Shown here: positions 930 through 62,964 of the stretch, piece after piece
Layout: each line of letters starts with the position of its first letter
How positions within the stretch are numbered: the first letter of the stretch is position 1
Assembly (NCBI RefSeq): GCF_036373705.1
Contig: NC_089858.1
Location: 32,776,749-32,840,748, forward strand
From: Amia ocellicauda
Taxonomy: Eukaryota; Chordata; Actinopteri; Amiiformes; Amiidae
DNA: 64,000 bases
Direction: 5' to 3'
Made by a program: the position numbers and the translations under genes
The notes under the pieces: generated by a model
Told to the model about the DNA's origin: nothing
Seen by the model: only the letters and a program-made list of their open reading frames with translations
Databases searched by the model: none

Positions 930-1990
930 ATGTTGATGCCGCAGCGGAGGAGGGGCGGGACCAGTAGCACAGCGGCCGGCCGTCCTGTGTCTCTGCGCGC
1001 TTCAGCCTTCGCTTCATGCAGAGCAAGAGCCGCAGCGATTTTGTTCCCCAAAACAGCAGATCCCTCGTCCCACGTTCAAGTTGCCGAGTGGATGGTCGTG
1101 CTGGTGAGTTTTATGCCATGGAAATGCAGTGCAATAAATAAGACGTGATCTTTCACAATGTCCAAAAAGATGGAAGCACCTGGACTCGAACCAGGGACGT
1201 AATGATTTATAGTCACCTGCTCTGCCGCTGAGCTATACTCCCACCATGGATGAGAGTCCAGCTCGTATGGGGCTGATAAAGTTGTGTGAACGCGTGTGAA
1301 CTGGTTTCACATGGCTATTGAAATGGGTGGTGACGTGATGCTTCTTGCTTTCCATGACGGCACATTCGGCCTCTATCGTCTTGTTCTCTGCACATCAGCC
1401 CCACAAGGGACGATCCAGGCATTGAGTGACGTCAGCGCTAAACCAGAACACTCCCAGCAGCCCCTGCGCCAGAGACAGCCCGTCTCCGTGTCCGGCCCGT
1501 GTCTGATGGCGTCTCTAAAGCTGCCGCTGCCGCTTCATGTCCCGGGAACAGCCCTGTGGCTTTTGTAGACGCCAGAGAGGCTGTGGCTTGTATACGACTG
1601 CTATGCTAGGAGCACCGGTGAGTGGAGTAGCCGCAGCACTCCCGGGGTGCGAGTGAGCGAGTGCTTGTACTTGCTTTTGTGGGGACAGTTTTATGGCTGC
1701 ACACCAACAACGTGGGGACAGAAATCGAGGTCCCCACTGTCCCGCCTATTGCAGTGAGTAGCGCAAGTCTCAAAAACATGTGCGCCATCAAAATGTCAGC
1801 TGCCGCCAGCGGTGCCGCTCCGCGGATAAAGCTGTGAGTGAAGACTCTGCCCCAGAGGCGCGCATGTGCGCTGCAGCTGTGACGCCCTTCGGTCACATGA
1901 CGGGAAATGCAGGAGGGGAGGTGCAGATCGGTCATTGCTTTTCCAGCTGGAAATACAGTGATTTTTACATACACACACGTTTTACCACAC
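930..1990. promoter_or_regulatory. GC-rich block with CRE, repeated in each unit
   Basis: This block is richer in CG dinucleotides than the rest of the unit. It holds a GC box (GGGCGGG near 954) and a perfect palindromic CRE, TGACGTCA, at 1427-1434. The CRE is kept at 15111-15118, 19693-19700, 24275-24282 and 28855-28862; in unit 2 it was removed with the LINE insertion. The block looks like a CpG-rich promoter, but I found no convincing first exon. The several open frames in it are not supported by splicing or family resemblance. Confidence 0.4.
1171..1242 (-). tRNA. tRNA-Cys-like gene with AUA anticodon (unit 1)
   Basis: The 72-nt cloverleaf is visible on the minus strand. The acceptor is GGGAGTA/TGCTTCC (two wobble pairs), D stem GCTC/GAGC, anticodon stem GGTGA/TCATT, loop CTATAAA, T stem CCTGG/CCAGG, discriminator A. 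Box A is TAGCTCAGCGG and box B is GGTTCGAGTCC. A run of five T follows within a few bases of the 3' end, as a Pol III terminator. Overall it aligns without gaps to vertebrate tRNA-Cys(GCA) as I recall it, but the anticodon is ATA, which would read the Tyr codon UAU. It could be a tRNA pseudogene or a tRNA-derived RNA gene. Confidence 0.8.
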
Positions 1991-2334
1991 ACTGATGTAC
2001 ATGATGTAGCCTGTTAGTTGTATGGGTTTTTTTTTTTGTCAGTGAAAGAAACGATCTATTTCTGCTGCGTTTAGCCTTTTAATCAGCATTTGATGTGCTA
2101 CGATTTTGCAACGAAAGCTGTCAGTTTGACTGATTTGTTTTTCGAATGTATATTGTCATGCTAGCTATGCATCCGGAAGTATGTATGTCTAATTGAAAGT
2201 ATTTTTAAATCGGTGTGTTTAGAATGTGCAGAATAGTCCATGTGATCGTAGGGAGTGTTGTGTAGATGCAGTGCTCTGCTGTGGCTTCTTGGCGTAGTTA
2301 AGGCAGATACAGGCCTCGTTTATGTCTTACTAAT

Positions 2335-2675
2335 GCAGTTGGAACATAAGAAACATAAGAGTTTACAAACGAGAGGAGGCCATTCAAGCCATCGTGCTCG
2401 TTTGGTGATCCAAGGATCCTATCCAGTCTGATTTTAAATGTCCCCAAATGTTCAGCTTGCACCCCATCGCCGGGGAGTTTGTTCAGACTGTGACGCCCCT
2501 CCGTGTGAAGGAGTGTCTCCTGTTTTCCGTCTCGAAAGCCCTGAAGCCCGATTTCCATGTGTGTCCCCGCTGATCTGGAAAAGCTCCTCTGGTCTGATGT
2601 GGTCGGTGCCTTTCATGATTTCCAAGACTTGATTCAAGTCCCCACTGTTCTGCAGTGTGCTGAAACTGAACACGT
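2335..2675 (-). mobile_element. CR1-type LINE tail, decayed (unit 1)
   Basis: Minus-strand frames still show the C-terminal motifs of CR1-type reverse transcriptase ORFs: LNQVLEIMKGTDHI near 2620, then LNKLPGDGVQAEHLGTFKIR near 2440. The frames are shifted relative to each other, so it is an old fragment. It was in the unit before amplification because every unit carries it. Confidence 0.75.
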
Positions 2676-3323
2676 GTACTGTAGCAAGTACATTCACTTC
2701 TCATTTTCACACTCATTTGGGCTCAGCTGTACCTTTTGATATTGATGTACCATTTCCGTCTGCTTTCATACCCGTGTACAGTAAATGGACGAAGGATGAC
2801 TTGCTTACACGTAGCGATGCATCTTGAATTCAAACTGCAGTGCCCTGTGACTGGCGTGTATTATTTTCAGTAGTATTGTAGCGCTCGGAGGGTCTTCCAA
2901 TAGATAAGCCCAAGTCATATTTCAGGGTGCAACAGTGCGCCCTTTCCATTGTTTATGTAATGCCGCGCTGCTCGTATTCGGGTTTTTCCTGGCTCAGAAT
3001 GGGCCCTTGGGGGGTGACTACACACGACAGTAGGCATGATCGGTCCACGTACAGTAAAGGCAGTGAGTTACCTTATGACAGAAATCGATGCGTTTTCTTG
3101 TTATTTCTGACCGTTGGATAAACACAAATGTCTGTCATGCTTGAATAAATGAATCCCCATTAACAAAACTGGTTGAAACCAAAAAAGAATTGTATTACAA
3201 CACTGGAAGGTGGGCAGGGGAGGGAGTTTGAGGGAGAGGGGTGTGGGGTTGGGAGAGGGGAGGCTGTCAGTTGCAGAGGTCACATCCTGCTTCAGAGCAT
3301 TTCACTGTCCTCTTTGTATTAAA

Positions 3324-4497
3324 TCAACTCAATGAAAGGGATCTGACAAGGCCACGGTAGTCTATCTCGTCAGCCTCCGGTCCGTCAGTGGCCACCCTGC
3401 AGCACACGTCGAGGTGGTCATTCTTGAGCCGGTTCCTCAATGGCGTTTTCACCTGTTGAGAATTGAATGGAGAATGCAGTGATTGTGCCGTCGGCATATA
3501 ATATGAACAATCCTAGAACGTTCTGGGGTGGGGCATATACTGTATATTGCAGATTACACATCATGTTAACTTTATTTTTCCAGCTTGAGGGCAGAGAACA
3601 ACCGCTCAACGTCTGCGGTCTGGACGGGGGCGGTGAGGGCAACGGCTGCTGCCAGGCTGAGGCGGGGATAAGTGACTGAGGCCTCCGGAGACACCAGCCA
3701 GAGGAGAACCTCCTCCGGTGATTTAGACTGCAAGCAAAGAAAAACGATGGAATAATGTCATTTGAGTATGAAGACTTATTTCCATGTTGAATGGTAGTTA
3801 TGAAACGTACTGCAAATTGTCACTGACCCTTAGGTCTGGGCTCTTGACCCTGTCCGTGAGTACGTCCCACTCTTGGAGTAGGACAGACTCCTCCAGTCTG
3901 GGGCTCTGCTTAGCCAGAGCCCGCATCTCCTTCAGACCAAAGTTTGGAGCGGGGTTTGCCAGCAGTTTACTCACTGTGAAAACACCAACGTTTTGCAGGG
4001 CACTGGTGCCGGGGTAGCGGTTATCGATGTTTTCCACAAGCATAGAGAGGAATGGTTCCATCGCCTAGAATGAAAATAAATCATGTCAAATTCATGGATT
4101 ATAAATATTATATATAGAGAGAGTATATACACTGTATAGTACTTGTAATAGGAGTGCTGTATCCCTGCTAGATAGCACTTCTCAGTTTTATCATGCTTCT
4201 TGTGTTTTCGATTTTGTTTTCCTGCTTGCTCCCTTTCCCGTAGCCCTTGACTGTGACCCTACATCTTGACAGCACTTAGCTTTCACCGTCCAGGATGTAG
4301 GGCCTCACTTACTGTACTTGCTTGTTTCAATTATAAATTGGAATTTGTCAAATGTATTTTGAATTGCTATGTTTCGTTTAATTGAATTTGTAATGATTGA
4401 TGCCTTTTACTTAACTGTATTTTTTTTGCACTTTGTTTTACACTTATGTTGTAAGTCGCCCTGGATAAGGGCATCTGCCAATAAAAATAATAATAAC

Positions 4498-4552
<55 letters not shown>

Positions 4553-4935
4553 GTAATAATAATATATCTATACTGTATATATCTCATACCGTTTTCCGGA
4601 ACCTCTCCCAGATGCCCTCTTTTAAGTGGGCAGGAATTTCTTCCTGGAGTGCCTTCAGCCCGGTGTCGGAGGTCAGTCAGGACTTCCACCTGTCCCTAAC
4701 TTGGGTCTTCTCCTTAAATAGGACCAAGGATGCCTTCAGTGCTGTCACCTATAATACATACTTACAACACAATCATGTCACAGATGGCGGAGTCATCCTT
4801 CCATTGTTATAGACGTATACCGTTTTAGACTTTTATTGTCGACAACTACATACATACCTCCTGATCCACTTGAGAGAAGATAGGGGCTCTTGTTTGGAAG
4901 ATCTGGAACTGCCTGTGCAGCTTCTCGTGCAGCAC
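3324..4935 (-). pseudogene. hAT-like gene tail, exons 2-6 (copy A)
   Basis: Five minus-strand exons are visible: 4858-4935, 4590-4712, 3828-4064, 3581-3727 and 3324-3452. All have lengths divisible by three and would encode 237 aa. Exon 5 holds TADVERLFSALKL and exon 6 KTPLRNRLKNDHLD, the C-terminal dimerisation region typical of hAT transposases and hAT-derived genes of the ZNF862 kind. No DDE-core or N-terminal zinc-finger exons were found in the unit, so only the 3' end is present. In this copy exon 3 carries TGA in place of the second TGG of the WKSWL motif, so it is probably dead. The exon 5/6 junction has no GT donor (GAAAAA follows CTG). Confidence 0.7.
4200..4562 (+). mobile_element. 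L2-like LINE/SINE tail ending in (TAA)n (unit 1)
   Basis: The 3' part reads GTAAGTCGCCCTGGATAAGG then CATCTGCC, a 3' end very common in fish L2-type LINEs and the SINEs that share their tail. It is followed by a (TAA)n run of about 80 bp (4481-4562). The upstream part matches, in reverse orientation, the element at 38550-38850. The same tail sits in units 3, 4 and 5. Confidence 0.7.
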
Positions 4936-5337
4936 CTTAAAAGTCAGTTCATAGTAGAAAAGTACAGTAACGGTGTAGAAATAGAAAGTACAAATGCTAT
5001 GAAGAAAAGTCACTGTCTTACCTGCATCAGACACAGGGCCGGGGGGGAAAGAACTCATTTGTGGCAAAGTTGAAGGGCCCATGAGCAGTGGGCTCCTTCC
5101 TGGCCTGCAGAGACAGGTCTGCCGACAGAGCTGGGAGGATCCGGCGGACAACATCTGTCGCCTCCTTGCTGCTCTCCCACCTTGTCTGATTGCCTCCCTG
5201 AAAAGCAAAGGTAACACTTTGCAATCAAAGTCGCTTGGTTATGTAATAAAGATATGTATCGCACATTATGGCAGTTAATCGAACCTGCAGTTTTAATTGT
5301 TGGAGATTGAACACTTTTTCCATACTGCCTGTCATTA

Positions 5338-5339
<2 letters not shown>

Positions 5340-5371
<32 letters not shown>
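5340..5371. repeat. (TA)n microsatellite, expanded only in unit 2
   Basis: Unit 2 has about 15 TA repeats here. The same place in units 1, 3, 4, 5 and 6 has only about five (for example 740-751). This explains most of the length difference of unit 2 in this segment. Confidence 0.9.
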
Positions 5372-5376
<5 letters not shown>

Positions 5377-5789
5377 GCTTTTCTTTCCTCAGTCTTGCCC
5401 AGAGTGCAGAGGTGTGTAGCAATAAAGTCACAGTTGTCTTGACTGAACAGTGTGGGTTATTATTGTTATGTCCTGATGGCTGTAGCTGATGTTTAAATAA
5501 ATCAATGGAGATAAAATGACAAGACCGACTTAGCTAGAACACACAGAAATGTTGATGCCGCAGCGGAGGAGGGGCGGGACCAGTAGCACAGCGGCCGGCC
5601 GTCCTGTGTCTCTGCGCGCTTCAGCCTTCGCTTCATGCAGAGCAAGAGCCGCAGCAATTTTGTTCCCCAAAACAGCAGATCCCTCGTCCCACGTTCAAGT
5701 TGCCGAGTGGATGGTCGTGCTGGTGAGTTTTATGCCATGGAAATGCAGTGCAATAAATAAGACGTGATCTTTCACAATGTCCAAAAAGA

Positions 5790-5861
5790 TGGAAGCACCT
5801 GGACTCGAACCAGGGACGTAATGATTTATAGTCACCTGCTCTGCCGCCGAGCTATACTCCC
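5790..5861 (-). tRNA. tRNA-Cys-like gene, AUA anticodon (unit 2)
   Basis: Same as the unit 1 copy except that the D-loop base A14, nearly invariant in tRNAs because it pairs with U8, is G here. It is probably not a functional tRNA. Confidence 0.75.
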
Positions 5862-5999: not shown

Positions 6000-6538
6000 C
6001 AATAGTGAGAGAAACCTTTGTCCAGCAGGGGGCTTTTAGAGCTGTATTTGACAGTCTTTCTTTTTTCCTTGCAGGGAGCTGATCCATCAGGCCAGACCAG
6101 ACGAGACGGGGAGGTGCCAGTTGACAGAGCTGCAGAGTCCTGGGTCCTTGGAGCGGTCCGGAGGCCGAGGCGAGTGGAGATTGGGACGGACCGGGAGCGA
6201 CAGGGGACCTAGCCAGAGGAGTCGGAGGACTCCTCACGGAGTGGTTCCCATCCAGAAGCCCGGCCGACCATCTACCCGGAGCCCGGCCTGACCAGGACTG
6301 CTCCCCGCTGACGTCACCAGCCAGGATCCAGGAGAGGCCTCGGATTCCAGGGACCGAACAGGCCGATCGGCAACGTCCCTGAGGGAGGCCTCCTGCAGCC
6401 AGGGCCCGGACTTCTCCCCGCCAGGCCCGCTCCCTGCAAGAGCCCCGGAGGTGGAAGCTGCTCCCCAGCCAGGTGGACTTGCCCCGACCTCCGGATTGAG
6501 AGCCTCCCGACCCTTCTCCCAGGTAGGAAAAGCGCAGC
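6000..6538 (+). promoter_or_regulatory. 5' UTR of the Tx1-type LINE
   Basis: This is GC-rich sequence present only in unit 2, between the left insertion border and the ORF1 start codon. Family knowledge predicts an internal promoter here; I see no recognisable TATA box. A short open frame (6018-6212) is out of frame with ORF1 and unlikely to matter. Confidence 0.6.
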
Positions 6539-8176
6539 ATGGCCCAGCGAACCGCCGGTGTGAGGCGCCATAATGCGGTGCGCTTCAGCCGTGAGGCTGG
6601 AGCCGAGACCGCGGCCCTCACCCGGCTGGAGTTCAGCAGGTCCGTGCTGCAGAGGGGCCTGGGCTTTGCCCCTTCTGAGCTGAACTGTGTGGTAAAACTG
6701 CCTGGACCTAGGGACGTGTTCGAGGTGAGCTTTAAGAACCCTCAAGTGCTGGAGAGTTTTTGGAACCTGTATAGGGAAAAAAAAGACAGCATGCCCCTGA
6801 ATGACTTTGTGGTCGATGCCCTGACAGATAGAGAAATTAAAATTGTAACAATTCAGTTTTACAACGAAGCAGTGGCAGAGTACGACGTAGAAGTATGGCT
6901 GAGGAGACACTGTGAGATCCTGTCTGAAAGCAGGAGAGTTAATGATGAGGATGGGGTCTGGACCGGTGCTCGGCGGTGGCAGGTGCGCCTGCAGGTGGAA
7001 GTGGCCGCCATCGGCGGAGTACGCCATCTACCAAGCACCGTGGTTTTAGGAGCAAATAGGGGGCTTGTCTTCTATCATGGCATGCCCAAATTATGTAGAA
7101 ACTGCGGGGCCCTGGGTCATTTAGCCGCAGCCTGTACTGTTGTTAAGTGCAAGGTCTGCGGCGGAGAACATCAGACCAGGGCCTGCAAGCAGGAGAGGGC
7201 CTGCAACCTGTGCGGTGGGGGAGGGCATCTCTTTAGGAATTGTCCCTCCTCCTATGCAAACAGGGCGCGGGCCCTCGGGGGTGGTGGAGAGAGAGAAAAT
7301 CAAGCGGAGGCTCCTCCAAAGGTGATACCCCAAGATGGGGGTAGAGAGGAAACAATCCTCAGGAGCCTCATAGGTTCCCTCTCTGACTCTGGGTCAGAAG
7401 TGGAGGCAGAGGGAGAGTGGACAGTGGTAGCGGGGAAGAGAAGGAGGGCAGAGAAGAGGAGCATGGGTAGGGGGGGTATGATGAAAAAAAGGGTCCATTC
7501 TGCAGATTCTCCCCCCCCTGCCGGCTCCTCCCCCGCTCCAGAGTCCCCTCCCTCTAATTTCTATACGCCCCACTCTGACTCCGGAGAGGAGAGTGGTGGG
7601 CCTTCTCCACTGCCCCGAGTGGGCAGCCTGGTAGATGAGAGGCCCCCTAGAAATAACATTCCTCCTGCCCCACAACTGAGACTCTCCCAGGGGAGGGGTC
7701 AGGTATGCCCTCCCGGCAGTAGTGGGAGAGCCGCAGGTCCTCAGGAGATGAGAGTCGGCGCCAGTGTCCTTTCCCAGAAAGACATCAGGGACGTGATGGC
7801 AAGGTCACTGGCGCTGGGGGAGGAGGCCTGCGGCGGCAGACAGCCGGGAAGGGAGAGACCACCCCCTCCCCCACCATTAGTTAAAAGAACAACTAGCGGG
7901 GTCTACACAGTTTTCTCCCCAGTTGTACATAAAGCCTCTGCCCTGCCATCTGTTCGTCGGGCCTCGGCCTCAAAGGAACCAGGGAGAACCTCCAGCACCA
8001 CGGGCCCTGAGCCCAGTGGAGTTTTGCCAGCCTTACCGGGTGGCGGGAGCCGAGCCCCCCCCATAGTCTTCCTAGAGGATCAAGCGGTGAGGCAAATGAT
8101 TGAAATGATGGGTGCTAGCGCTAAGCTAGGTGAGGGAGAAGAGAGGAGTGGGGAAGAGAAAGGTTTCTTTACATGA
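6539..8176 (+). CDS. ORF1: LINE ORF1: CCHC zinc-knuckle nucleic-acid-binding protein
   Basis: This 545-aa protein is expected to bind element RNA and form the ribonucleoprotein. The N-terminal half (about residues 1-180) has the layout of Tx1-type ORF1 proteins, with VLGANRGLVFYHGMPK just before the zinc region. Three CCHC knuckles follow from residue 186: CRNCGALGHLAAAC, CKVCGGEHQTRAC and CNLCGGGGHLFRNC. The rest is a low-complexity Pro/Ser/Gly/Arg-rich tail. The start ATG at 6539 has a purine-containing context (CGCAGCATGG) and no upstream ATG in frame. It ends in TGA at 8174-8176; ORF2 continues in the same reading frame right after this stop. Confidence 0.9.
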   Translation: MAQRTAGVRRHNAVRFSREAGAETAALTRLEFSRSVLQRGLGFAPSELNCVVKLPGPRDVFEVSFKNPQVLESFWNLYREKKDSMPLNDFVVDALTDREIKIVTIQFYNEAVAEYDVEVWLRRHCEILSESRRVNDEDGVWTGARRWQVRLQVEVAAIGGVRHLPSTVVLGANRGLVFYHGMPKLCRNCGALGHLAAACTVVKCKVCGGEHQTRACKQERACNLCGGGGHLFRNCPSSYANRARALGGGGERENQAEAPPKVIPQDGGREETILRSLIGSLSDSGSEVEAEGEWTVVAGKRRRAEKRSMGRGGMMKKRVHSADSPPPAGSSPAPESPPSNFYTPHSDSGEESGGPSPLPRVGSLVDERPPRNNIPPAPQLRLSQGRGQVCPPGSSGRAAGPQEMRVGASVLSQKDIRDVMARSLALGEEACGGRQPGRERPPPPPPLVKRTTSGVYTVFSPVVHKASALPSVRRASASKEPGRTSSTTGPEPSGVLPALPGGGSRAPPIVFLEDQAVRQMIEMMGASAKLGEGEERSGEEKGFFT

Positions 8177-8209
8177 TTGTTACGGAGCGGGTATGCCCTC
8201 ACAGCCATT

Positions 8210-11200
8210 ATGGCATTAACCATTATTTCAATAAATGTGAGGAGCATTGCTGAGGTGAAAAAGAGGACCGATGTTTTAAACTCTCTGGCTGGAATGAAGG
8301 CGGATATTATCTGTTTGCAGGAGTGCGGCATCCCGTTCCAAAAAGAATATAAAGATCTCCGGGACACTTGGACCCTAGGAGAATCCTTCTGGTCGAGGTC
8401 CAATGTGTCCCGAGCGGACGGGATTGCCGTACTCCTGAAAAACCCCTTCTTAACAGTTAAAACATTTAAGGTTATAGAGGCGGGCAGACTGGCCAGCCTC
8501 GATTTTAAATACAAGGGGGCTGTATTGAGGCTGGTCAATGTCTATGCCCCCACCAGCCAGAGAGAGAGAGTCCTCTTTCTCCCTCAGCTACGCCCGCTCC
8601 TGATCGGCACCTTGCCAGTTATCATTTCAGGTGATTTCAACTGTGCTCTGAGGGATGTAGACCGGAGTAAGCCCCGCAACGATAGATCCAGCAGGGACCT
8701 CGCTGCGTTCGTGGAGGACTTTGAACTCTGCAACGCAGGTCGGGACCTGGTCCCCTTGTTCACCTGGGTGAGTTCTTCTGGCTCCTCCTTCTCCAGGATA
8801 GATCTCGTCCTCCTCAGCAAGCCACTGGAGAGGACCGCCATGTCTTCGGAGGCGGTCTTCTTTTCAGACCACAGGCTCCTGACGACAGAGGTGCTCATTC
8901 CGAGCACACGGGAGTCGGGGCCTGGGGTCTGGAAGCTCAACACCTCTCTGCTCGATGACCCTCGTGTGATTAAGACCTTTAGCAGACGCCTCGAGGAGTG
9001 GAGGACCCTGAAGGACCTTTTTGATTCTCCCATAGAGTGGTGGGAGATGATGAAGAAAAGAACCAAGGGCTACTTCATTCAGCTGGGGAAACGGAAAGCT
9101 CGCGAGAGGCGGGCGAGATATTCCCATCTAAACGCCCGCCTCCAGCGCCTGAGTCTTTTACAGCTCAGAGGCTTCGACCTAGCTGAGGAGGTGGCCCGGG
9201 TCAAACTGAGTCTCTCCGCCCTCTATCGGGAGGAGCAAGAAAAGATCAAGGTCCTTTCCAGGGTCCGCATCATGGAGGACGATGAGAAATGCAGCCGCTT
9301 CTTCTTCAAGAAAACGAAGGAGAGGCGGCCTGCAATGTCCTCCATGATCGACTCCTCGGGGCAAGAGGTGGAGGGCAGAGAGGCTGTTGAGACAGTGGTG
9401 CGGGATTTCTACAGGGAGTTGTACTACCAGAAGGTGGTGGATCAAAATCTGATCCATCACTTTCTGTCCCTGTTGGAGTCCCGCAATGAGGGGGACGAGG
9501 AGGAGGAGGAGGATCCAGAGATCACCACCACTGAACTCTCCCAGGTGATAAAGAGTCTTAACTCTGGAAGGACACCGGGTCCCGACGGGATCCCTGCTGA
9601 GTTCTATAAGATCTTTTGGGAGGTGCTTAAGGAAGATCTGGGCCAGGTCCTGGGGTCGATGTACAGAGAGGGCAGATTGGCCCCTTCGATGAAGAAGAGT
9701 ATCCTCTCCCTTCTTCACAAGAAGGGAGACCCGAAAGATCTGAGGAACTGGCGGCCAGTCAGCCTCCTGTGCACCGACTACAAGATACTGGCCAAAGCAC
9801 TGACGCTCCGGCTGCAGCGGCCACTCCCTCAAGTCGTGGGTCCCGACCAGGTCTGTGGTGCCCGGGGGAGATCGGCGGCCGACAACGCCATGCTGCTCAG
9901 GGATGTCGTGGCCTACTCGAACGAGAGAGGGCTTCCCCTGGTCCTAATCAGCTTGGACCAGGAGAAAGCCTTCGACAGAGTGGGCCACGAATACCTGCAG
10001 CTTGTTATGGAGAGGATGGGTCTCGCTCTTGGCCTGAGGAAGTGGGTCAAGATCATCTACAGCGGCCTAAGCAGCAGGGTCCTTGTGAACCGCCACCTGA
10101 CCGAACCATTTCCGGTCAGGTCGGGGGTCCGGCAGGGTTGTCCCCTGTCGGCCCTGCTGTACGTCCTCTGCTTGGAGCCGTTCATGCAGGCGATCCGCCG
10201 GGACGTCCGGGTGACAGGTTTCCATCTCCCGGGTTCCGGCGGAGAGCAACTGAAGGCCCTGGCCTATATGGACGACGTGGCCGTGGTCTGCACGGACGCT
10301 CCGTCCGTGGCCAGGGTCGAGGAACTGCTGGACGGCTTCTGCAGGGCGACGGGGGCCGCTGTGAACAAGGCCAAGAGCGAGGTCTACCTCTCCAGGGCAT
10401 GGCCTGTCGGCCGGGGCCCGCCGACCGTGTTCCCTGTGAAGCCGTTTATCAAGGTTCTGGGGATCACGATCGACGGGACCAACACGGGCACCCGGAGCTG
10501 GGAGGAGGCCATAGCAAAGGTCCAAAGGAAGATCCACGGCTGGAGCACAAGGACCTTGACGATGGCCGGTAAGGTGCTGGTCGTAAAGGCCATCCTCTTC
10601 CCGATACTCCTCTACGTAGGAATGATCTTCCCCCCAGACAAGGTTATCGCAAAACTAGTGACCCGAATTATATTTCGGTTTGTCTGGGGGAGCAAAATGG
10701 AGAGGCTGAAAAGAGTGCAGATGGTGAAGGGTACCCTGGATGGAGGCAGGGGGGTCCCGGACGTTGTGCGGCTGATAAAGGCGCAGGGGCTGGCCTATGT
10801 GGTCAAGAACATCCAGGCTGCTGGCAAGAAAGTGAGTTTCATGAACCGCTTTTATTTTGCCAGCAGCCTGAGACCATTCGGCCTCTGCGCCATGGATAAC
10901 ACCAGGCCGCACTCGTGGGATCCCCCGCCGTTCTACAGGGCGCTCCGAGCCTTTGCGCTCGAAGTAGGCCTCCATAAAGTCGTGCTGGCCTCCTGGGATT
11001 ATAAGACCATCTGTAGTCAGATGAGATCTACCCAGGAGACCAGCCGGATAGAAGATTTCCCTCCCGAAACCTGCCGGTTTATCTGGGCTAACGCTACGCA
11101 CGTTTGCCTCACGAACACGCAGAAAGATGTCTCCTGGATGGCTGTGAGTCGGTGTCTCCCCACCCGAGTGTTCATGCACAGAAGGGGCATAGCTCCTTAT

Positions 11201-11605
11201 GACACCTGCCCCTATAAGGGTTGCCTGGGGAAGGAGACGGAGGCTCACATCTTTAGTGAGTGCCCCTCCGCCCACAGGGTCTGGCTCCTGTTTTCTCCGT
11301 TCCTCCACAGGTTCGCCGTTCCTGCGCGGGCGACCGCCCAGCAGATCCTATACGGTCCAGCCAAGGGAATCTCTTCATCTACCTTGAGGTGCTGGTGGCT
11401 TGTCGTCTGCGCAGTGAAGCAGGCACTGTGGGAGGGACGGAACATCTGTTTGTTCAATAAGCAGGAGCTGGACCCGATCGTCATCGCGCGGAGGGGCATG
11501 GTGTTTGTAAGAGACTATGTCAATCTGGAGGTCCATCAGAGGGGCAAGGAGGAAGCCTACAAGAACTGGCGCATACAAGATCTGGGGGAGCTCAGGATCC
11601 CATGA
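8210..11605 (+). CDS. ORF2: LINE ORF2: endonuclease-reverse transcriptase
   Basis: The product is 1131 aa from the first ATG in frame (8210); the frame is open back to the ORF1 stop. Residues 1-230 form an APE-type endonuclease: INVRSI near the start, QECG, SGDFNC, and SDHRLL at about 219. The reverse transcriptase follows: LNSGRTPGPDGIPAEFYK, LISLDQEKAFDRV, SGVRQGCPLSALLY and the catalytic YMDD at about 686-689. The C-terminal domain has CPYKGC at 1000-1005, then an HIFSEC partner, a CCHC-type knuckle usual in this clade. It nicks target DNA and primes reverse transcription of the LINE RNA. No frameshift or internal stop was seen. Confidence 0.93.
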   Translation: MALTIISINVRSIAEVKKRTDVLNSLAGMKADIICLQECGIPFQKEYKDLRDTWTLGESFWSRSNVSRADGIAVLLKNPFLTVKTFKVIEAGRLASLDFKYKGAVLRLVNVYAPTSQRERVLFLPQLRPLLIGTLPVIISGDFNCALRDVDRSKPRNDRSSRDLAAFVEDFELCNAGRDLVPLFTWVSSSGSSFSRIDLVLLSKPLERTAMSSEAVFFSDHRLLTTEVLIPSTRESGPGVWKLNTSLLDDPRVIKTFSRRLEEWRTLKDLFDSPIEWWEMMKKRTKGYFIQLGKRKARERRARYSHLNARLQRLSLLQLRGFDLAEEVARVKLSLSALYREEQEKIKVLSRVRIMEDDEKCSRFFFKKTKERRPAMSSMIDSSGQEVEGREAVETVVRDFYRELYYQKVVDQNLIHHFLSLLESRNEGDEEEEEDPEITTTELSQVIKSLNSGRTPGPDGIPAEFYKIFWEVLKEDLGQVLGSMYREGRLAPSMKKSILSLLHKKGDPKDLRNWRPVSLLCTDYKILAKALTLRLQRPLPQVVGPDQVCGARGRSAADNAMLLRDVVAYSNERGLPLVLISLDQEKAFDRVGHEYLQLVMERMGLALGLRKWVKIIYSGLSSRVLVNRHLTEPFPVRSGVRQGCPLSALLYVLCLEPFMQAIRRDVRVTGFHLPGSGGEQLKALAYMDDVAVVCTDAPSVARVEELLDGFCRATGAAVNKAKSEVYLSRAWPVGRGPPTVFPVKPFIKVLGITIDGTNTGTRSWEEAIAKVQRKIHGWSTRTLTMAGKVLVVKAILFPILLYVGMIFPPDKVIAKLVTRIIFRFVWGSKMERLKRVQMVKGTLDGGRGVPDVVRLIKAQGLAYVVKNIQAAGKKVSFMNRFYFASSLRPFGLCAMDNTRPHSWDPPPFYRALRAFALEVGLHKVVLASWDYKTICSQMRSTQETSRIEDFPPETCRFIWANATHVCLTNTQKDVSWMAVSRCLPTRVFMHRRGIAPYDTCPYKGCLGKETEAHIFSECPSAHRVWLLFSPFLHRFAVPARATAQQILYGPAKGISSSTLRCWWLVVCAVKQALWEGRNICLFNKQELDPIVIARRGMVFVRDYVNLEVHQRGKEEAYKNWRIQDLGELRIP

Positions 11606-12142
11606 TGGGACCCACCTCCGGGGACGGTTAGTTCCCCCTGCTGGAGCCCGAGTCCAAGATCTTTTAAAGATTTTACGGATGACTGTTTTAAAAAGATTTT
11701 AAAAAACGAATCTTAATTGTTTTTAAAGATTTAGTTGTTTTTAATTCACATTGTTCAGGTTTTTTTTTTAAATAGTTTTGTTATATTTTGTTGTCAAATA
11801 CATTGACCGTTTTGGGTTTAATTTAAAATGCATTGGACTTTTTTTGTTTGTTTTTTATTTTTTCCTTTTTAATTGTTTTTTTAATTTGTTCAATGCATTT
11901 TCAGTTATTTTCAATGTATTTGACTCTTTTGTTGGTGTGCAATTTTTTGCTTTTATCACGTTTTGTTTATTTGATTTGAGCACGTTTATTTTAAAGTTAA
12001 TTGTTTTAGTTAAAATCACAAAGATTTTAAATTTTTTTAAGTGATTTTAATGATTGATATTTTAAATGATTTTAATCATAAGTATTAAAATTGGAATTGT
12101 TTTATTTTAAGAAATGTAAAATACTCAACCTAATAAACAGTA
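11606..12142 (+). other. 3' UTR of the Tx1-type LINE
   Basis: The region is strongly AT-rich (runs of T and TTTTAA). It ends in AATGTAAAATACT, an AATAAAC polyadenylation-like motif and CAGTATTTA at the insertion border. There is no long poly(A) tail. The last 80 bp match the relic at 56576-56656, so this is a family-specific 3' end, probably the part recognised by the reverse transcriptase. Confidence 0.85.
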
Positions 12143-12733
12143 TTTATTGCAGTGAGTAGCGCAAGTCTCAAAAACATGTGCGCCATCAAAATGTCAGCTG
12201 CCGCCAGCGGTGCCGCTCCGCGGATAAAGCTGTGAGTGAAGACTCTGCCCCAGAGGCGCGCATGTGCGCTGCAGCTGTGACGCCCTTCGGTCACATGACG
12301 GGAAATGCAGGAGGGGAGGTGCAGATCGGTCATTGCTTTTCCAGCTGGAAATACAGTGATTTTTACATACACACACGTTTTACCACACACTGATGTACAT
12401 GATGTAGCCTGTTAGTTGTATGTTTTTTTTTTTTTTGTCAGTGAAAGAAACAATCTATTTCTGCTGCGTTTAGCCTTTTAATCAGCTTTTGATGTGCTAC
12501 GATTTTGCAACGAAAGCTGTCAGTTTGACTGATTTGTTTTTCGAATGTATATTGTCATGCTAGCTATGCATCCGGAAGTATGTATGTCTAATTGAAAGTA
12601 TTTTTAAATCGGTGTGTTTAGAATGTGCAGAATAGTCCATGTGATCGTAGGGAGTGTTGTGTAGATGCAGTGCTCTGCTGTGGCTTCTTGGCGTAGTTAA
12701 GGCAGATACAGGCCTCGTTTATTTCTTACTAAT

Positions 12734-14856: not shown

Positions 14857-14928
14857 TGGAAGCACCTGGACTCGAACCAGGGACGTAATGATTTATAGTC
14901 ACCTGCTCTGCCGCTGAGCTATACTCCC
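14857..14928 (-). tRNA. tRNA-Cys-like gene, AUA anticodon (unit 3)
   Basis: Identical to the unit 1 copy across the 72 nt, with the same A and B boxes and terminator. A 2-bp deletion lies just upstream of its 5' end (near 14939). Confidence 0.8.
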
Positions 14929-19436: not shown

Positions 19437-19508
19437 TGGAAGCACCTGGACTCGAACCAGGGACGTAATGATTTATAGTCACCTGCTCTGCCGCTGAGCT
19501 ATACTCCC
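19437..19508 (-). tRNA. tRNA-Cys-like gene, AUA anticodon (unit 4)
   Basis: Identical to the unit 1 copy across the 72 nt, with both internal promoter boxes and a T5 terminator. Confidence 0.8.
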
Positions 19509-24018: not shown

Positions 24019-24090
24019 TGGAAGCACCTGGACTCGAACCAGGGACGTAATGATTTATAGTCACCTGCTCTGCCGCTGAGCTATACTCCC
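24019..24090 (-). tRNA. tRNA-Cys-like gene, AUA anticodon (unit 5)
   Basis: Identical to the unit 4 copy, exactly 4582 bp from it. Confidence 0.8.
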
Positions 24091-28600: not shown

Positions 28601-28672
28601 TGGAAGCACCTGGACTCGAACCAGGGACGTAATGATTTATAGTCACCTGCTCTGCCGCTGAGCTATACTCCC
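28601..28672 (-). tRNA. tRNA-Cys-like gene, AUA anticodon (unit 6)
   Basis: Identical to the unit 5 copy, 4582 bp further on. Its upstream flank shares the 2-bp deletion with unit 3. Confidence 0.8.

Positions 28673-56977: not shown

Positions 56978-62964
<5,987 letters not shown>

Follow-up and report, generated by a model that had tools for sequence, protein, structure and literature searches.

In the parts available to us of the tRNAscan-SE 2.0 report, Tyr-ATA is named as an unexpected eukaryotic anticodon, and genes of this sort are treated as unusual and probably non-functional, though not automatically as pseudogenes (PMC8450103); an excerpt of a bovine tRNA paper likewise cites a survey in which Tyr-ATA was absent in all species examined (PMC10763252). 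Shifts of anticodon between related genes have 75 documented cases in the accessible text of the principal study (Rogers and Griffiths-Jones 2014, PMC3923123). Clustering of tRNA genes is also established, in that most tRNA genes and pseudogenes of zebrafish and stickleback are reported to lie in clusters, which are rare in three other teleosts (PMC2888827, in the portion available). The tRNA-like gene analysed here, which carries the anticodon AUA, joins these known kinds (unexpected-anticodon tRNAs, anticodon shifts and tRNA clusters) and has an instructive history. We consider it probable that it is a relic tRNA gene riding in a dispersed repeat, passively amplified and with no part in decoding.

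As in the unexpected-anticodon genes described with tRNAscan-SE 2.0, the gene combines a strong score and the name Tyr-ATA with a conflict between body and anticodon; as far as those genes are described in the available text, it differs from them in belonging to a dispersed repeat and an 11-copy tandem array, and in having an intact paralogue, on contig C20 (C20a), with a stop-reading anticodon (PMC8450103). Like the loci that have undergone anticodon shifts, related loci differ in anticodon (UUA vs AUA), but the published shifts, in the text accessible, involve standard anticodons and tRNAs predicted to be functional, whereas none of the family members read here has a standard anticodon (PMC3923123). 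Its acceptor stem has a G:U pair predicted to attract alanyl-tRNA synthetase (AlaRS) whatever the anticodon, as has the G4:U69 tRNA-Thr of an earlier study, from which it differs, going by the available part of that study, in that the pair stands at 3:70, where it canonically marks alanine, and in that no cognate synthetase able to edit the product is evident (PMC7337962). The large tRNA-Cys, -Phe and -Tyr clusters of this genome recall those described for teleosts, but the unit of the present array measures 4.6 kb, with one non-standard tRNA and hAT-derived exons (PMC2888827, same portion). Zebrafish tRNA-Sup-TTA genes are reported, in the excerpt available, to cluster with Lys-TTT and are therefore unlikely to be the same gene as the C20a-type tRNA (PMC11417395). 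Our search of the literature on UUA suppressors in vertebrate genomes found no paper, which is no proof that such genes are undescribed.

The window, i.e. the whole stretch of DNA analysed (64,000 nucleotides), corresponds to C9:32,776,749-32,840,748; the genome searched comprises 988 Mb in 385 contigs. Six copies of the tRNA-like gene lie within the window:

1171-1242, minus strand: first copy of the tRNA-like gene in the window, with anticodon AUA, G3:U70 and A73 (ARAGORN, Rfam)
1164-1168, minus strand: run of five T residues (T5), the putative Pol III terminator, shared by those members of the family, among the ones read, in which the trailer survives
5790-5861, minus strand: copy with A14G and one mismatch in the A box (Rfam, alignment)
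14857-14928, minus strand: copy with the same sequence as that at 1171-1242 (ARAGORN, Rfam)
19437-19508, minus strand: copy identical to that at 1171-1242 (ARAGORN, Rfam)
24019-24090, minus strand: copy identical to that at 1171-1242 (ARAGORN, Rfam)
28601-28672, minus strand: copy identical to that at 1171-1242 (ARAGORN, Rfam)

ARAGORN called a tRNA with the anticodon ata at all six, on the minus strand throughout, and the Rfam model RF00005 gave 60.3 bits for five of them (E 1.4e-10) and 55.5 bits for the copy at 5790-5861 (E 3e-9), all six being far above chance (gathering score 29). The gene at 1171-1242 is 72 nt long, has the anticodon loop CTATAAA and forms a cloverleaf in which 21 of 21 pairs are standard. 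Its A box (TAGCTCAGCGG) and B box (GGTTCGAGTCC) show no mismatch to the consensus sequences, and the T5 run begins at position 75, two bases past the gene. The preliminary description, made from the sequence alone, had proposed a tRNA-shaped gene with an A box, a B box and a T5 terminator and with the anticodon AUA in a CTATAAA loop, all of which is borne out; its further statement that AUA is essentially unused in eukaryotes accords with the listing of Tyr-ATA as unexpected in the available text on tRNAscan-SE 2.0. It had also correctly noted that five of the six copies are identical, the odd one being distinguished by A14G, and the strand is here corrected to minus.

A genome search showed that the array reaches left beyond the window and holds 11 copies of the tRNA-like gene (C9:32,745,038-32,805,420), all within a common unit and in a common orientation. 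The starts of the window copies are spaced by 4619, 9067, 4580, 4582 and 4582 bases, and the pieces of the tandem units are 97.4-99.5% identical to the first unit in the window. The amplification proposed earlier is thus real in that there are several copies, but these are not independent, all being units of one 4.58-kb tandem duplication. The following features of the array are relevant to its history:

1243-5861: one 4.6-kb tandem unit, from tRNA to tRNA (unit comparison)
3572-3757, minus strand: exon for a hAT C-terminal dimerisation domain (PF05699), within the unit, about 2 kb downstream of the tRNA-like gene and on the same strand
6000-12144, plus strand: non-LTR retrotransposon (ORF1 with CCHC; ORF2 with endonuclease and reverse transcriptase), which interrupts one unit 138 bp upstream of the A14G copy

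Seven of the 11 copies are identical, three have A14G and one has an A-to-C change at position 38; both A14 and A38 are usually important in tRNA. Variable sites across the 11 copies number 2 of 72 in the tRNA and 8 of about 580 alignment columns in the adjoining unit DNA, the latter being columns 0-650 outside the tRNA, with a cut of our own choosing at the end of the leftmost unit and the comparison made without a formal test. The array shows no sign of purifying selection on the tRNA-like gene, and since the identity of its copies is as expected from recent duplication, that identity is no evidence for selection. Each of the three A14G copies lies 138 bp from a unit break of equal size (6146 bases). 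The break in the window, the one that was read, is the non-LTR retrotransposon, the other two lie in units further left, and the shared break is probably a single event copied with the block. The retrotransposon encodes an ORF1 of 549 aa with CCHC and ZCCHC3-type RNA-binding domains and an ORF2 of 1142 aa with endonuclease, reverse transcriptase and zf-RVT domains, and we take it to belong to the Tx1 branch of L1. Exons of the hAT-derived gene nearer the tRNA-like gene were read by eye, without a Pfam match, and two unit stretches tested likewise gave no match to Pfam. To the right of the array the window contains kinase exons (cGMP-dependent protein kinase, PRKG-like), near which lies a 14-bp tandem repeat, CACCTGCAGCAACA, of about 43 copies (59450-60054), and putative acyl-CoA synthetase exons assigned by eye.

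When the 72-mer was used to search the genome (E<=1e-3), 12 places were found, namely all 11 array copies and a single locus on C20 (C20a; C20:28,530,685-28,530,756). The C20a gene is 89% identical to the array gene, scores 57.7 bits, shares the 3' trailer and has the anticodon UUA, complementary to the stop codon UAA. The two loci are homologous over approximately 500 bp, including an upstream block that marks a dispersed repeat family:

1420-1605, minus strand: upstream block with TGACGTCA, the mark of the dispersed repeat family
1071-2321: stretch containing the tRNA-like gene, homologous to the family member at 32.02 Mb on C20 (67% over 1281 columns)

A query covering the upstream block (1400-1620) found 27 places, eight in the array and 19 elsewhere (C2, 11; C19, three; C20, two; C8, two; C18, one), and a query of tRNA plus trailer found 23, comprising the 11 of the array and 12 elsewhere (C5, five; C20, two; C23, two; C374, C2 and C19). 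A tRNA-derived SINE was considered and is tentatively disfavoured, as few dispersed copies were found (only 12 places for the tRNA alone at E<=1e-3 and 23 for tRNA plus trailer, counts that are lower bounds, common words having been skipped).

Outside the array we read C20a, eight upstream-block regions and four tRNA-plus-trailer regions. Seven of these sister copies keep a trace of the tRNA, of which C20a is intact and six (C20b, C2a, C23a, C23b, C5a and C5b) are decayed, with sequence missing from the D arm, the anticodon arm or the T arm: C20b and C2a have a shortened tRNA with the loop CTATAAA, C23a and the two C5 copies have the loop CTTTAAA and lack most of the T arm, and in C23b the anticodon arm is absent. 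One C19 copy (C19m) keeps the trailer and has no tRNA, and the other C19, C18, C8 and two further C2 copies show no tRNA trace in the stretch read. Besides C20a, ARAGORN found no tRNA in the 12 family regions read, and Rfam gave no tRNA match up to E 1 in the eight upstream-block regions or up to E 10 in the four tRNA-plus-trailer regions and two of the upstream-block regions. On the opposite strand to the tRNA-like gene (window approximately 950-1103, plus strand), a short reading frame beginning MAATTTVPEWSEAFVLL ends at a GTGAGT donor-like site common to several family members; neither this conserved frame nor one frame of the C20a region has a match in Pfam, and the former is possibly the first exon of a gene of the repeat. 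The upstream block also occurs in 11 copies of near-equal score at C2:52.7-59.0 Mb (10) and C18:42.2 Mb (one). Two of these were read over 6 kb; they share 98.9% identity along the whole length and have retroelement-like reading frames. For nine of the 11 there is a tRNA-Tyr motif 25-31 kb away, and for the remaining two none within 90 kb. The copies probably mark a large repeat unit that includes tRNA genes.

The relationships of the family members were examined with IQ-TREE (ultrafast bootstrap) on a portion of the 5' flank; in this tree one C9 unit stood for all 11, and C9_u4, C23 and C5 were left out. C20a grouped with C18 and two C2 copies (support 99) and C20b with C2a (support 72), these two groups being joined with a support of 96, while C9 together with the pair of C19 copies was set apart from the others (support 94). 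The tRNA-like gene is therefore present on either side of the tree's midpoint, and the simplest history is that it was present in the family ancestor and was then lost or broken several times. C19m was considered as an empty pre-insertion site, a reading we reject because its structure can be accounted for by a deletion bounded by two ATC triplets and because it lies beside C9 in the tree. Which anticodon is ancestral is equivocal on the sequences: position 34 is T in C20a, C23a, C5a and C5b and A in C9, C20b and C2a, and UUA is one candidate. The 31-39 pairs of C9 (A-U) and C20a (C-G) may possibly be independent repairs of an A.G mismatch, depending on the rooting.

Against a simple relic it must be set that C9 and C20a, on opposite sides of the midpoint, are both full-length and score above 57 bits. 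Their tRNA sequences differ at 8 of 72 positions without indels, as against 87 of 281 with 15 indels in the 5' flank (multiple alignment, p 0.0005 vs tRNA) and 18 of 66 in the trailer (multiple alignment, p 0.017). In the pairwise alignment the flank differs at 74 of 318 positions (p 0.024), or 86 of 386 with the trailer (p 0.038). The upstream block alone, at 23 of 127, is not significantly above the tRNA (p 0.23), and the 26 bases aligned immediately past the tRNA agree at 23 positions (pairwise), as closely as the tRNA itself. In pairs involving the decayed C2a, tRNA and flank do not differ in divergence (p 0.72 with C20a, 0.25 with C9). The anticodon stem has undergone four changes between C9 and C20a with five of five pairs kept (simulation, P ~0.034). 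Over the molecule as a whole, simulated changes preserved this number of pairs with a probability of 0.11 when started from the array and of 0.002 when started from C20a. The C20a gene has the mismatch C3.U70. Both genes have A and B boxes without mismatch. Taken together, the low divergence, the kept pairs and the perfect boxes look like past or present constraint, and there is modest evidence that the two intact genes have been under some constraint for part of their history. This signal does not extend to the array, within which none is seen.

A rival reading is that of a Pol III RNA or TFIIIC site acting otherwise than in translation, as a boundary or as a source of small RNAs near the hAT-derived gene, for which the anticodon would be irrelevant. 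Such a role would account for boxes and T5 being perfect in both intact loci despite their different anticodons; T5 is present in all eight sequences examined, the A box is perfect in three of five decayed loci, and the tRNA-like gene lies about 2 kb upstream of the Pfam-supported hAT exon on the same strand. However, the B box has two to five mismatches in four of the five decayed loci and one in the fifth, so that the family evidently does not need it, and we regard this reading as unlikely.

The preliminary description had aligned the gene to tRNA-Cys and proposed that it was re-coded from GCA to AUA, in which case an RNA charged with cysteine would misread tyrosine codons. A search with the genome's own Cys(GCA) pattern gave 57 places, of which 30 loci were read, yielding 15 distinct sequences. 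The alignment stands to the extent that 54 of 72 positions agree with the commonest own tRNA-Cys (12 of the 30 loci; 34-55 across all 15 sequences) and that Cys heads a panel of 16 isotypes, with 0.75. The resemblance is weak, however, since Phe reaches 0.74 in the same panel (Ala, 0.67), and for C20a the values are Cys 0.71, Ala 0.71, Phe 0.70 and Ile 0.70; His, Leu, Ser, Glu and others are absent from the panel. A single-copy ancestor with GCA, which it had been suggested to look for, did not appear: none of the family members read has GCA, the surviving loops being UUA or AUA, and an exact pattern of the D arm with the loop N34-U35-A36-A37-A38 occurs at eight places, seven in the array and C20a. 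The main eukaryotic Cys determinants, U73 and G34-C35-A36 (PMC9976931, Table 1, in the part available), are both missing, as A73 is found in 11 of 11 array copies and in C20a and the array anticodon is A34-U35-A36. A cytosolic tRNA-Cys identity is thus not supported, nor is re-coding from tRNA-Cys, and cysteine charging of a re-coded tRNA-Cys seems to us extremely improbable. It is no better a cytosolic tRNA-Tyr, having G1-C72 and A34 in place of the C1-G72 and G34 that, with A73, are the published Tyr determinants (PMC9976931, same part). A motif from the 5' part of tRNA-Tyr(GUA) is matched exactly at 280 places in the genome, so an AUA tRNA is hardly needed for UAU. Among the clusters met in these searches, 54 of the 57 tRNA-Cys pattern matches lie on a single strand at C27:4.24-4.59 Mb. 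ARAGORN called Cys at 28 of the 30 Cys loci read, and one of the C27-cluster loci not called Cys is adjoined by a Cys body with the anticodon AAA. A further cluster, at C20:2.22-2.49 Mb, has 40 or more tRNA-Phe genes that share 97% identity with human tRNA-Phe; the two that were read had the altered T loop GGATCAATCC.

The array gene, with G1-C72, G2-C71, G3:U70 and A73, fits another isotype. In the available part of the same source the alanine set is G3:U70 with A73, and G2-C71 is likewise an Ala determinant (PMC9976931); the set of G3:U70 with A73 is found in the array genes but not in C20a, which has C3.U70. As G3:U70 and A73 are present and AlaRS is reported to ignore the anticodon (PMC7337962, in the text available), alanine, and not the cysteine earlier supposed, is the amino acid expected on this comparison if the array RNA is expressed and matured. 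A working tRNA charged by AlaRS would then insert alanine at UAU (C9) and by read-through at UAA (C20a), perhaps in a restricted tissue or at a low level. In the experiments on human cells, as accessible, 19 of the 21 read-through peptides had received alanine from an amber tRNA-Thr bearing G3:U70, but with its own anticodon the G3:U70 tRNA-Thr gave no detectable misreading, ThrRS clearing it (PMC7337962). Further points in favour are the intact Pol III signals, the divergence between C9 and C20a, which is below that of most of the flank, and a loop that keeps A36-A37-A38. The latter is the substrate motif for i6A37. Other observations argue against it: no purifying selection is seen within the array, three of 11 copies have A14G and one has A38C, and the fold of lowest computed energy for the array RNA differs from the cloverleaf (for C20a it is the cloverleaf, except for pair 3:70). 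Constant Tyr-to-Ala misreading should also be harmful. The mismatch C3.U70 of C20a counts against it as well, though E. coli tRNA-Ala mutants with C-U at 3-70 stayed active according to the part of the source available (PMC9976931). On balance a working alanine tRNA appears quite unlikely. The stronger form of the proposal, that the repeat family carries a selected and expressed alanine tRNA giving UAA read-through (C20) and UAU recoding (C9, with as many as 11 genes) in certain cells or under certain conditions, we hold to be very unlikely. With inosine at position 34, the C9 RNA may read UAU, UAC and UAA. C20a alone, with UUA, has a stop-complementary anticodon, the AUA of the array reading UAU.

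The tRNA-like gene might alternatively descend from a prokaryotic-type tRNA brought by a mobile element. Among the matches listed, the best E value was that of a phage tRNA-Asn against C20a (86.7% over 60 nt, E 8e-12), the array gene matching phage tRNA-Asn at 85.5% over 61 nt (E 3e-10) and an unannotated plasmid stretch at 86.7% (E 3e-10); the phage tRNA-Asn matches listed range overall from 82 to 87% over approximately 60 nt. The lowest E for a vertebrate tRNA-Cys was 2e-6 (82.3% over 61 nt; best 8 of 906). However, these best matches were picked from very many genes, 8-20 of hundreds being listed, and vertebrate tRNA-Cys and tRNA-Phe also match phage tRNAs, if less strongly (eight listed for each). 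A 32-base 5' pattern was exact in a single contig among 84,980 prokaryote genomes, neither it nor a 30-base 3' pattern matched any viral contig, and global identity to the two phage genes read was 52-59 of 73-75. On these exact-pattern searches and identities a specific prokaryotic donor was rejected; we regard the likeness of the tRNA body to phage and plasmid sequences as largely generic tRNA similarity, and such an origin as highly improbable.

Our preferred reading is therefore that of a passively amplified relic, the outcome that the preliminary description had itself named as its refutation (a passive pseudogene), with the qualification that cloverleaf and boxes are still intact. Its basis is that the anticodon is one that eukaryotes avoid, that the array copies vary no less than their flank and that six of seven sister copies have decayed, all of which make a role in decoding unlikely. 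A changed anticodon is also found elsewhere in this genome, within another tRNA cluster, in the Cys body with AAA. On this reading the relic rides in a dispersed repeat family of the Amia ocellicauda genome. One member of the family was taken into the 4.58-kb C9 unit, now present in 11 copies by tandem and block duplication, and the tRNA-like gene was presumably amplified passively as a passenger of that unit. Because the Pol III promoter and terminator look intact, some transcription is likely. If the RNA were matured, its likeliest charger, going by published identity sets, would be AlaRS and not cysteinyl-tRNA synthetase, and it would place alanine at UAU, and at UAC or UAA too if A34 were converted to inosine.

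Should the gene be a relic, it would clearly illustrate the origin of tRNA predictions that score highly despite a forbidden anticodon: a repeat multiplies the tRNA gene that it has caught, so that copy number and identity are uninformative on use. Should it be expressed, it would be a naturally occurring tRNA that combines G3:U70 with a tyrosine- or stop-reading anticodon, and would directly test the tolerance of a vertebrate to Tyr-to-Ala or UAA-to-Ala misreading.
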